Shown here: in pieces, positions 260 through 52,111 of the stretch | Numbering within the stretch: position 1 is the first letter of the stretch | Layout of the letters: the number at the start of each line of letters is the position of its first letter | IMG/VR virus record: IMGVR_UViG_3300020595_000037 | Location: 1 to 61,518 of that record | DNA from: a virus | Length of the DNA: 61,518 nucleotides | Reading direction: 5' to 3' (one strand) | The notes under the pieces: model-generated | Told to the model about the DNA's origin: nothing | Database searches by the model: none | Seen by the model: the letters and a program-made list of their open reading frames with translations, nothing else | Position numbers and translations under genes: made by a program

Positions 260-943
260 ATGATCAATCCTAACAAATTTGCTAATCAAAAAATACAAGA
301 ACTAGGTCAAAACCTTTTTCAAGGTGAAGAGTTTGCTCAGCAAATAGCCAACAAACAATTAGACCAGCCAGTTCCACCTCCAGGCCCTTATGGTGATATA
401 AATCCTATTATGAATAAAGATAGTAGAGAGGCTAGAAGACAAGAGAGAAAAAATATCAGAATGGCCAACAAAGGTTTACGTCAAGCTAGAAGAGAAAGAG
501 CTAAAGGTGTAAAAGAGCAAGGTCAAGAAAATTATAGCTATGATGGTTATGAAAAAGGTAGATATAATAAAAAAGGTGATGATATAGAATATGGTAAAAC
601 ACCTAGATATTCTAAAAAAAATCCACCAAGTGGAAGTGATGCTAGTTTTGGTATTAGTGGTTATGTAAATGATAAAAAGCAATTTAAAAGTGCTTTAAAT
701 CAAGGTACAGAATCTAAATACAAAATGGTAAACGTACAAGATTTAGAAGACATGGGAGCTGTAAAATCTGATAAAAAAGGCAAATATGTTGTTAATTCTG
801 ATGAAATGAAAACTGGAACACCTAGAGATACATTAAGACTACCAAGAGGCGCTAAGCATTACACAGGTAGAGATTATAAAGTTGGAGAATTAATTGATGA
901 AAGTGATTTTGAAGACTTTGCAAAAGACGTAAATAAAAAATAA
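260..943 (+). CDS. hypothetical basic protein with LNQG motif
   Basis: The 227-residue protein is not assigned to a family. Residues about 55-95 are very basic (RQERKNIRMANKGLRQARRER). Residues 100-140 are rich in Tyr, Lys and Gly. A short KSALNQG motif near residue 150 resembles KSPLNQG in the gene at 2773 and KSSPFNQG in the gene at 32863. It is followed 4 bases later by the next gene and has no signal peptide or membrane segment. A DNA- or head-associated virion role is possible but unproven. Confidence 0.7.
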   Translation: MINPNKFANQKIQELGQNLFQGEEFAQQIANKQLDQPVPPPGPYGDINPIMNKDSREARRQERKNIRMANKGLRQARRERAKGVKEQGQENYSYDGYEKGRYNKKGDDIEYGKTPRYSKKNPPSGSDASFGISGYVNDKKQFKSALNQGTESKYKMVNVQDLEDMGAVKSDKKGKYVVNSDEMKTGTPRDTLRLPRGAKHYTGRDYKVGELIDESDFEDFAKDVNKK

Positions 944-947
944 TATT

Positions 948-1178
948 ATGGCAAAAAACCCAGGACAAGTTGGTGCTAACGCAACGTGGGACGGACCCCA
1001 CCAACCAACTAATTTAAAAGAAGGAAATCCAAGATATGGTATGGATCCAATGCAGGTATTAAAAGATCCACTACCTTATAAAGCAGGACCAATATCTTCT
1101 ATAGCTAAATCTAAGCTTGGAGGTGGTTGGCCTGACAGTATGGTTGCTGACAGATCTATAAATACAACAGCAAAGTAA
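948..1178 (+). CDS. hypothetical protein, 76 residues
   Basis: Gly/Pro-rich small protein starting MAKNPGQVGANATWDGPHQP, without membrane segments or a known motif. It begins 4 bases after the previous stop behind the A/T-rich leader ATAATATTATGG, the start context typical of this genome. Spacing on both sides implies one operon with the endolysin. Function unknown. Confidence 0.65.
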   Translation: MAKNPGQVGANATWDGPHQPTNLKEGNPRYGMDPMQVLKDPLPYKAGPISSIAKSKLGGGWPDSMVADRSINTTAK

Positions 1179-1190
1179 AAATTCACTAAA

Positions 1191-1655
1191 ATGAGTGATA
1201 GAATAAGTGAACACATATCTCTTAAAGAAGGTATTAAATCTCACACAGCTACTAGGTTAAATATTGACAATATACCTAGAGAATTAGATTTAATTAACAT
1301 GAAAACTATTGCAGAACAAGTGTTTGAACCTCTACGTAAATGGGTGGGTGGTCCAATCGCTATTAATAGTTTCTATCGCTCGCCCAAATTAAATTCTGCT
1401 ATTGGCGGAAGTACAACCTCACAGCATTGTATTGGTTGTGCACTTGACATAGACGATAACTACGGTTATAAGACAAATGCAGAGATGTATGATTATATTA
1501 AGAATAACTTAGATTATGATCAGATTATTTGGGAGTTTGGAACAGAAGATAACCCAGACTGGGTACATGTAAGTTATGTTTCAGAAGATGCTAATAGAAG
1601 AAGATGTTTACAAGCTTATAAAGAAAATGGTAAAACTAAATATAAAATAATATGA
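1191..1655 (+). CDS. M15-type D-Ala-D-Ala/L-Ala-D-Glu peptidase, probable endolysin
   Basis: The 154-residue protein matches the Peptidase_M15 (zinc carboxypeptidase-like) pattern over its full length. It has INSFYRSPKLN, then SQHCIGCALDID with H79 and D86, then DWVHVSY with H126; these three residues fit the zinc ligands of the family. Such phage enzymes cut the peptide stems of peptidoglycan. The size is normal for a single-domain endolysin and no signal peptide is visible, so release would need the holin encoded at 4461. Its stop overlaps the next start (ATGA). A virion-borne role is possible but less likely. Confidence 0.85.
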   Translation: MSDRISEHISLKEGIKSHTATRLNIDNIPRELDLINMKTIAEQVFEPLRKWVGGPIAINSFYRSPKLNSAIGGSTTSQHCIGCALDIDDNYGYKTNAEMYDYIKNNLDYDQIIWEFGTEDNPDWVHVSYVSEDANRRRCLQAYKENGKTKYKII

Positions 1656-1777
1656 ATTCACCTTTTTTTAAAAAAATGATGAAAAACCCGTGCTGGAAAG
1701 GTTATGAAGCTTATGGTATGAAGACTAAAAACGGTAGAAAAGTACCTAATTGTGTTCCTAAGAAAAAGAAAAAGTAA
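1652..1777 (+). CDS. small Cys-containing protein with WKGYE...VPNCVP motif
   Basis: The 41-residue product overlaps its upstream neighbour (ATGA) and its downstream neighbour (TAATG), good evidence of a real coupled gene. It reads NPCWKGYEAYGMKTKNGRK followed by VPNCVP and a Lys tail. I recall similar short sequences in marine phage virion proteins, without a known function. Two Cys residues are present, too few for a standard zinc site. Confidence 0.65.
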   Translation: MNSPFFKKMMKNPCWKGYEAYGMKTKNGRKVPNCVPKKKKK

Positions 1778-49331: not shown

Positions 49332-49351
49332 ATTTAATTATTTAATATTAG

Positions 49352-49423
<72 letters not shown>

Positions 49424-49428
49424 TTTAG

Positions 49429-49512
49429 TGGAAGTGGGCGGAATCGAACCGCCGTTTGAGATTGCTACCGTTAATTTGTCGGTTCTAAAATCTCACTTAC
49501 CTTATCACTCCC
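49429..49512 (-). ncRNA. tRNA-like element without normal D and anticodon arms
   Basis: Acceptor stem GGGAGTG/CACTTCC (one G-U pair) and T-arm GGCGG-TTCGATT-CCGCC are clear. Between them lie only 11 bases instead of a D-arm, then a 7-bp stem TGAGATT/AATCTCA that encloses a hairpin ACCG/CGGT. No standard anticodon loop can be drawn. This layout is similar in outline to a tmRNA tRNA-like domain (acceptor, T-arm, D-loop without stem, extended helix) but much shorter. It ends 5 bases before the initiator-type tRNA. A degraded or intron-bearing tRNA is possible. Confidence 0.55.
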
Positions 49513-51626: not shown

Positions 51627-51761
51627 TTATATTATATTAAATTTGTGAGTTTCTATTATACCAAGAACATCTGCTCTTGTTAGTTCATCTTTCATTTGTA
51701 GCAATATTGCCCAAGTGAGATCTATGTTTTTAGCATAGTGTGTATTTAAATTGTATATCAT
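51627..51761 (-). CDS. hypothetical protein, 44 residues
   Basis: I prefer ATG 51761 (MIYNLNTHYAKNIDLTWAIL) over ATG 51818 because the upstream in-frame ATGs lie inside or beyond a tRNA-like fold. It ends ...GIIETHKFNII. Helical, no known motif. Confidence 0.52.
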   Translation of the reverse strand: MIYNLNTHYAKNIDLTWAILLQMKDELTRADVLGIIETHKFNII

Positions 51762-51763
51762 AG

Positions 51764-51804
51764 TTGACATGAGTGGAATCGAACCACTGCTAACCATTAT
51801 GTCA
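51764..51804 (-). ncRNA. minimal tRNA-like element (acceptor plus T-arm)
   Basis: Stem TGACAT/ATGTCA, a D-loop-like segment AATGGTTAGC and T-arm AGTGG-TTCGATT-CCACT form a 41-base fold with no anticodon arm. The AATGGTTAGC block looks like a real tRNA D-loop, so an internal deletion of a tRNA is plausible. The end lies 2 bases before ATG 51761. Acceptor/T-arm minihelices are known substrates for tRNA-processing enzymes. Confidence 0.55.
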
Positions 51805-51883: not shown

Positions 51884-52111
51884 TTATACTAACTCTTTAT
51901 CTCTTAGTACTACTGGAATATTATTAGTAGCAGTGTATGATTTGTACTTTATGAAGCAAGCCATTTTTTCTAGATTACTTTTCATAATGTTGAAAGCTTT
52001 GTCGTGATTGTACACATACTTTTTACCTTTTTTGTTAGTGAATTCGATAGTTACATTTTTACCTACTAGTGACTGTCTGATGACAAATCTTTTTGAAATT
52101 AAATTACTCAT
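51884..52111 (-). CDS. hypothetical basic protein, 75 residues
   Basis: Starts MSNLISKRFVIRQSLVGKNV; beta-rich first half (TIEFTNKKGKKYVYNHDKAF), then helical. It begins about 28 bases after motif copy 2. Function unknown; might bind nucleic acid given the basic face. Confidence 0.58.
   Translation of the reverse strand: MSNLISKRFVIRQSLVGKNVTIEFTNKKGKKYVYNHDKAFNIMKSNLEKMACFIKYKSYTATNNIPVVLRDKELV

Follow-up and report, generated by a model that had tools for sequence, protein, structure and literature searches.

A tRNA-derived minihelix without decoding parts recurs in phage genomes and is most likely an RNA processing mark

Transfer RNA (tRNA)-like structures that mark RNA ends are known from several systems. 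In plant mitochondria, t-elements are tRNA-like sequences at mRNA ends without a genomically encoded CCA, RNase P and RNase Z cuts at them define transcript ends, and the t-elements are not aminoacylated (PMC11658184). In the MALAT1/mascRNA and MEN-beta/menRNA loci, a tRNA-like element lies directly behind a long non-coding RNA, the 3′ end of which is made by RNase P (PMC4919922). At MALAT1, as in plant mitochondria, both enzymes act on tRNA-like signals, and extensive truncation of tRNA is tolerated by bacterial RNase P (PMC11658184; PMC4919922). Moreover, excision of tRNAs creates the ends of neighbouring RNAs in mitochondria and in phage tRNA arrays (tRNA punctuation), and the tRNA-like domain of transfer-messenger RNA (tmRNA, RF00023) consists of an acceptor stem, a D-loop without D-stem and a T-arm. 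Here, we describe a 41-nucleotide (nt) tRNA minihelix in a marine phage, IMG/VR virus record IMGVR_UViG_3300020595_000037, the whole of which was analysed (61.5 kb, 61,518 nt; hereafter the window), and the terminase of which is closest, bar one metagenomic phage, to those of Flavobacterium/Cellulophaga podoviruses. This minihelix is a real, widespread and apparently undescribed phage RNA element, and most likely a processing mark.

On the minus strand from 51804 to 51764, the minihelix reads TGACAT AATGGTTAGC AGTGG TTCGATT CCACT C ATGTCA A and is followed by CT and then ATG (51761-51759), which leaves 2 nt between the discriminator and the start codon. Its parts are as follows.

51764..51804, minus strand: tRNA minihelix, acceptor stem of 51804-51799 with 51770-51765 (6 bp), discriminator A at 51764 unpaired.
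51789..51798, minus strand: D-loop-like linker AATGGTTAGC without D-stem, its GGTT invariant among 29 distinct elements.
51772..51788, minus strand: T-arm AGTGG-TTCGATT-CCACT, 5/5 pairs, canonical TTCGATT loop.

The sequence thus bears out the first-pass annotation, which had described a 41-base element with an acceptor-like stem and a perfect T-arm, lacking an anticodon arm and placed 2 nt before ATG 51761. The acceptor stem of 6-7 bp, the 5/5 T-stem and the TTCRA loop of these elements agree with canonical tRNA (RF00005), and the window copy has six Watson-Crick acceptor pairs, the seventh position being an A.C mismatch. The anticodon arm is absent, the 5′ acceptor strand being joined to the T-arm by a linker of only 9-12 nt. 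This linker is nonrandom and equals the D-loop sequence of tRNA without the D-stem (variants in relatives are ATGGTATACAA and CATGGTGCCGAG), and an elbow like that of tRNA may form by docking of its GG on the T-loop. In comparison with t-elements, the minihelix likewise has no encoded CCA but is only 41 nt long, has neither D-stem nor anticodon arm, lies in phage genomes, and its cleavage is a prediction (PMC11658184); mascRNA, in contrast, is a larger, eukaryotic nuclear RNA that has retained a diverged D stem and anticodon region (PMC4919922). Unlike the units of ordinary tRNA punctuation, the minihelix has no decoding capacity, and unlike tmRNA (RF00023) it has neither the G3.U70 pair of alanine identity (the window copy has A3-U70) nor a P2 arm or message domain.

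No described family seems to cover the minihelix. It was reported neither by ARAGORN nor by Rfam at the RF00005 gathering threshold, which together found only the tRNA-Met at 49351-49423, and a permissive Rfam scan of the element gave nothing convincing. No account of such a phage element was found in literature searches, which did not cover subscription papers. With a covariance model built for the element, the window copy scores 61.3 bits.

Folding energy by itself is unremarkable for the window minihelix (z about -1) and not decisive, and 60 order-1 Markov shuffles of the window yielded one comparable element, against exactly one in the real window. The evidence is comparative and comes from covariation, synteny and recurrence in unrelated phages. 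All syntenic matches to GGT-N8..14-TTCRATT, a pattern in which pairing is not requested, gave 27 distinct sequences, 24 of which have 6/6 acceptor and 5/5 T-stem pairs, the other three reaching 5/6. The letters themselves vary widely among the syntenic copies, with acceptors such as TGACAT/ATGTCA, AGACAT/ATGTCT, AGTGTG/CACACT, TGAAGT/ACTTCA, AGTCGT/ACGACT and AGTATA/TATACT, and T-stems AGTGG, GTGAG, GTGTG, GGTGG and TTGCG. Among the 29 distinct elements, double-sided changes occur at 10 of 11 pairs, the exception being the closing G-C of the T-stem, and the covariation score of 1.05 exceeds that of shuffles (0.24) and of slid pairings (no more than 0.23). As this set came from a pairing-aware scan, its fully paired positions are partly so by construction, and the unbiased checks of pairing are the 27 syntenic sequences and a stem-free pattern, AATGGTTAG-N6-TTCGATT, the matches of which split into intact minihelices and unpaired sequences. 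A chance hairpin is ruled out by covariation and synteny, and so is a random tRNA remnant in one genome, the case that the first-pass annotation had named as fatal to its proposal. Acceptor pairs are free to vary across phages, positions 2-71 and A73 being nearly fixed in the clade of the window. The variation of the acceptor between phages and the lack of a decoding part imply no single synthetase identity. Since many phages strictly retain the fold although the sequence varies, the minihelix probably marks where RNAs are cut apart.

Two genes flank the minihelix.

51884..52111, minus strand: conserved upstream gene, 75 amino acids (aa), which marks the syntenic position; no PHROG or Pfam match.
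51627..51761, minus strand: downstream gene, 44 aa, starting at ATG 51761, 2 nt past the discriminator.

The 75-aa protein had zero matches in the named phages searched. Its gene served as the anchor for retrieving 80 related viral loci, 75 of them with enough downstream sequence. Homologues of the minihelix stand behind the gene in about half of these 75, a scan tolerating weak pairing having flagged 46, a few of them doubtful. Presence in relatives, which the first-pass annotation had proposed as a check, was thus found. The 3′ flank is A/CTA(A) nearly throughout the syntenic loci (the slash standing behind the discriminator), as it is for the tRNA-Met of the window. In 35 syntenic relatives, the distance from minihelix to ATG is 14-29 nt in most, which would leave a short, AT-rich leader, and 0-2 nt in a handful including the window. 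Hence the idea that cleavage here offers a second route to leaderless mRNA does not hold in general, the more so as minihelices also lie beside GOLLD RNAs and tRNA arrays, settings that involve no start codon; a leaderless outcome is the extreme of a range, a special case, and the earlier interpretation is partly supported overall.

Several further features were seen at the syntenic site. Across loci L058-L137, the gene before the minihelix is conserved and the gene after it differs in nearly every relative, as in a cargo-like slot. L111, L116, L118 and L132 have longer tRNA-like variants with AACGGTTTCA and two extra hairpins (acceptors AGACAT/ATGTCT and AGGCGT/ACGCCT), and L107 and L122 have such longer variants with CTTGGAGCAG linkers (acceptors TCTCTT/AAGAGA and TCTAGT/ACTAGA). 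In L072, L078, L081, L097 and L098, another stem-loop directly follows the conserved gene, with a conserved loop close to TGAAGT[GA]C[TA]GATTAG and a varying stem, and is perhaps a further phage non-coding RNA.

Minihelices also recur in unrelated phages. The pattern ATGGTTAG-N4-GGTTCGANTCC occurs in 18 of 2.9 million viral contigs, and nearly all of these matches have the acceptor stem, which the pattern does not request. For the most specific pattern, the 18 viral contigs compare with 1 of 84,980 bacterial species genomes. Across 257 Gb of genomes from bacteria and archaea, the corresponding pattern had a single match, a perfect minihelix in Lapidilactobacillus, and the covariance model applied to 198 genomes of the Lapidilactobacillus order returned the same copy and nothing else. 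This single match indicates that the minihelix is rare outside phage sequence. A broader pattern, AATGGT-N6-GGTTCGANTCC, recovered mostly ordinary tRNAs, with 7-8 more minihelices among 80 loci, from which no rate is claimed, and when named phages were searched with the short element by BLAST, the matches were mostly genuine tRNAs. Two pattern matches were set aside, L015 as a longer tRNA-like gene with a different 5′ acceptor strand and L013 for want of acceptor pairing.

Other arrangements were observed as well. Locus L006 has six near-identical tandem minihelices (938-1777, minus strand), the last degenerate, which lie 100-250 nt apart in A/C-rich, low-complexity non-coding spacers. In L014 (157-312, minus strand), a minihelix lies between a perfect TTGACA-18-TATAAT promoter (12/12 sigma-70) and an intrinsic terminator, and apparently forms an independent small RNA gene, about 115 nt long. 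Minihelices with linkers of 14-20 nt, e.g. AGCAGTA-TAGTCTAATGGTAAAC-T-arm-TACTGCT, occur in Lactococcus phage 63302 (L052, 1890-2540), where they are near tRNA-Trp and tRNA-Pro, and in L181 (14079-14224).

The neighbour of a minihelix may be an mRNA, a GOLLD RNA or a tRNA gene, with the tRNA-like fold at the transcript border. According to the available passages on it, GOLLD is a giant RNA of phages that assembles into a nanocage as a 14-mer (PMC12286853), and its loci (RF02032) are known near tRNA genes, sometimes with a tRNA in the linker (PMC12286853, PMC6582537); these passages make no mention of a minihelix in place of the tRNA at the 3′ border. We examined 12 GOLLD loci, counting distances from the Rfam 3′ end. 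In five of them (L051, L139, L140, L145, L146), GOLLD is followed by a true tRNA that begins at a distance of 8-10 nt, and in three (L012, L019, L004) by a minihelix that begins at 8-11 nt; behind GOLLD in the other four (L141-L144, L141 and L143 being nearly identical) stands a tRNA-like sequence, degenerate or unclassified, whose T-arm is intact. Thus, a minihelix can replace a tRNA at a fixed position. This suggests tRNA processing as the source of GOLLD 3′ ends and parallels the arrangement of MALAT1/mascRNA and MEN-beta/menRNA (PMC4919922). L051 has an additional minihelix ~690 nt ahead of the GOLLD 3′ end, at a position occupied by a tRNA in L139.

Taken together, the minihelix is rather probably a stripped-down tRNA that serves as RNase P/RNase Z punctuation between transcription units. 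Phages would place an acceptor stem, a D-loop segment and a T-arm between transcription units as a processing mark. In a polycistronic minus-strand transcript of the window, host RNase P would cut on the 5′ side, just upstream of 51804, yielding the 3′ end of the RNA that precedes the minihelix, and host RNase Z would cut after discriminator A (51764), yielding the 5′ end of the mRNA behind, here 5′-CU-AUG; both RNA ends would be gained without promoter or terminator. The stump would keep only the parts held by the enzymes, i.e. the acceptor/T-arm stack and the elbow, with the decoding parts lost. In favour of processing, the next ATG is 0-29 nt away in most syntenic loci though the downstream gene keeps changing, and the host enzymes must process the tRNA-Met, whose A/CTAA flank is that of the minihelix. 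The first-pass proposal of an RNase P/RNase Z substrate therefore agrees with fold and placement, cleavage itself being predicted from sequence. For the wider claim we see even chances: that phages carry widespread, undescribed minimal ‘punctuation tRNAs’ (elbows without the decoding and D-stem parts), by which host tRNA-processing enzymes cut viral transcripts, making mRNA 5′ ends near start codons and also forming the 3′ end of GOLLD, the nanocage RNA, where they are interchangeable with tRNAs, as a prokaryotic-virus counterpart of mascRNA and t-elements.

Several observations weigh against processing. The AT-rich window copy has a modest predicted folding stability, many members have a mismatch in the seventh acceptor pair, and certain relatives have no minihelix at the syntenic locus. 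The +1 base is U or A, while RNase P usually prefers G there. Moreover, the L014 copy with its own promoter and terminator and the six L006 copies in non-coding spacers suggest that the small RNA itself may matter.

The strongest rival is accordingly a free trans-acting small RNA, the released minihelix acting as a sponge or decoy. Its target would be a host factor that binds tRNA (EF-Tu, RNase P, the CCA-adding enzyme or a T-arm modification enzyme) or a defence nuclease that attacks tRNAs. The L014 and L006 arrangements are what such an RNA would lead one to expect, and an acceptor/T-arm unit with an elbow is the part that these factors bind. However, most copies are intergenic in operons or beside tRNA or GOLLD, with no promoter of their own noted, and a decoy needs neither the vicinity of a start codon nor a site 8-11 nt behind GOLLD, so we hold this role to be unlikely, if the most credible of the alternatives. 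Somewhat less likely is a structure that stays uncut in the 5′ or 3′ untranslated region and protects the mRNA end or controls translation by tRNA mimicry. That the next ATG follows at a short, fairly constant distance in many relatives would suit it, but the protein downstream is not conserved, minihelices also lie beside non-coding RNAs without a nearby start codon, and the placement behind GOLLD would be left unexplained.

Two further explanations fare worse still. The conserved upstream gene and the changing gene behind the minihelix might point to a recombination seam, in which conserved tRNA-like DNA is the crossover point for swapping the downstream cargo gene; homologous crossover, however, needs conserved DNA, and here the DNA changes while the RNA fold is kept, which makes a seam very improbable. 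A tRNA remnant, whether left by decay of a tRNA gene or copied, attP-like, from the 3′ end of a host tRNA, is scarcely credible: the sequence is tRNA-derived, degenerate tRNA-like sequences also stand behind some GOLLDs (L141-L143), and attP sites often copy tRNA 3′ ends, but compensatory changes throughout both stems contradict decay, and the minimal architecture is constant in unrelated phages with no drift to unpaired forms. An attP copy in particular was rejected, as identity to a host tRNA 3′ end was not found and the sequence covaries away from any one tRNA (the integrase search was not exhaustive). Coding, or an upstream open reading frame, fails because the frame of ATGGTTAG..., MVxxGSIP in some phages, runs into a stop codon at once or soon afterwards in L007 and L003 and is broken by a length change in L011 relative to L005.

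If the minihelix is indeed a processing mark, phages divide long transcripts by minimal tRNA mimics in place of promoters and terminators, which also suggests how the ends of GOLLD RNA arise. The minihelix is a natural record of the minimal needs of tRNA-processing enzymes, and it represents a class of structured phage RNA that tRNA finders and Rfam miss.

About 2 kb from the minihelix, two further tRNA-like genes lie on the same strand.

49351..49423, minus strand: tRNA-Met, 3′ flank as in the minihelix, no encoded CCA.
49426..49512, minus strand: tmRNA-type tRNA-like domain without message domain, directly before tRNA-Met; G3.U70, A73, no D-stem.

The latter runs (49512-49426) through GGGAGTG, a stemless D-loop, a long hairpin, a T-arm and CACTTCC-A, and has the 3′ flank A/CTA in common with the minihelix. 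The Rfam tmRNA model scores it at 38.4 bits, below gathering (E 8.6e-14), matching both model ends with ~294 positions absent, so it looks like the tRNA-like domain of a tmRNA without the message domain, and is possibly an alanine-chargeable, non-decoding RNA that merits study of its own. Homologues occur in L003, L040, L060, L064, L066, L105, L130 and L135, with acceptors GGGAGTG, GGGCGTG or GGGGGTG; G3.U70 is kept in nearly all, pair 4-69 changes, and the central arm is highly variable.
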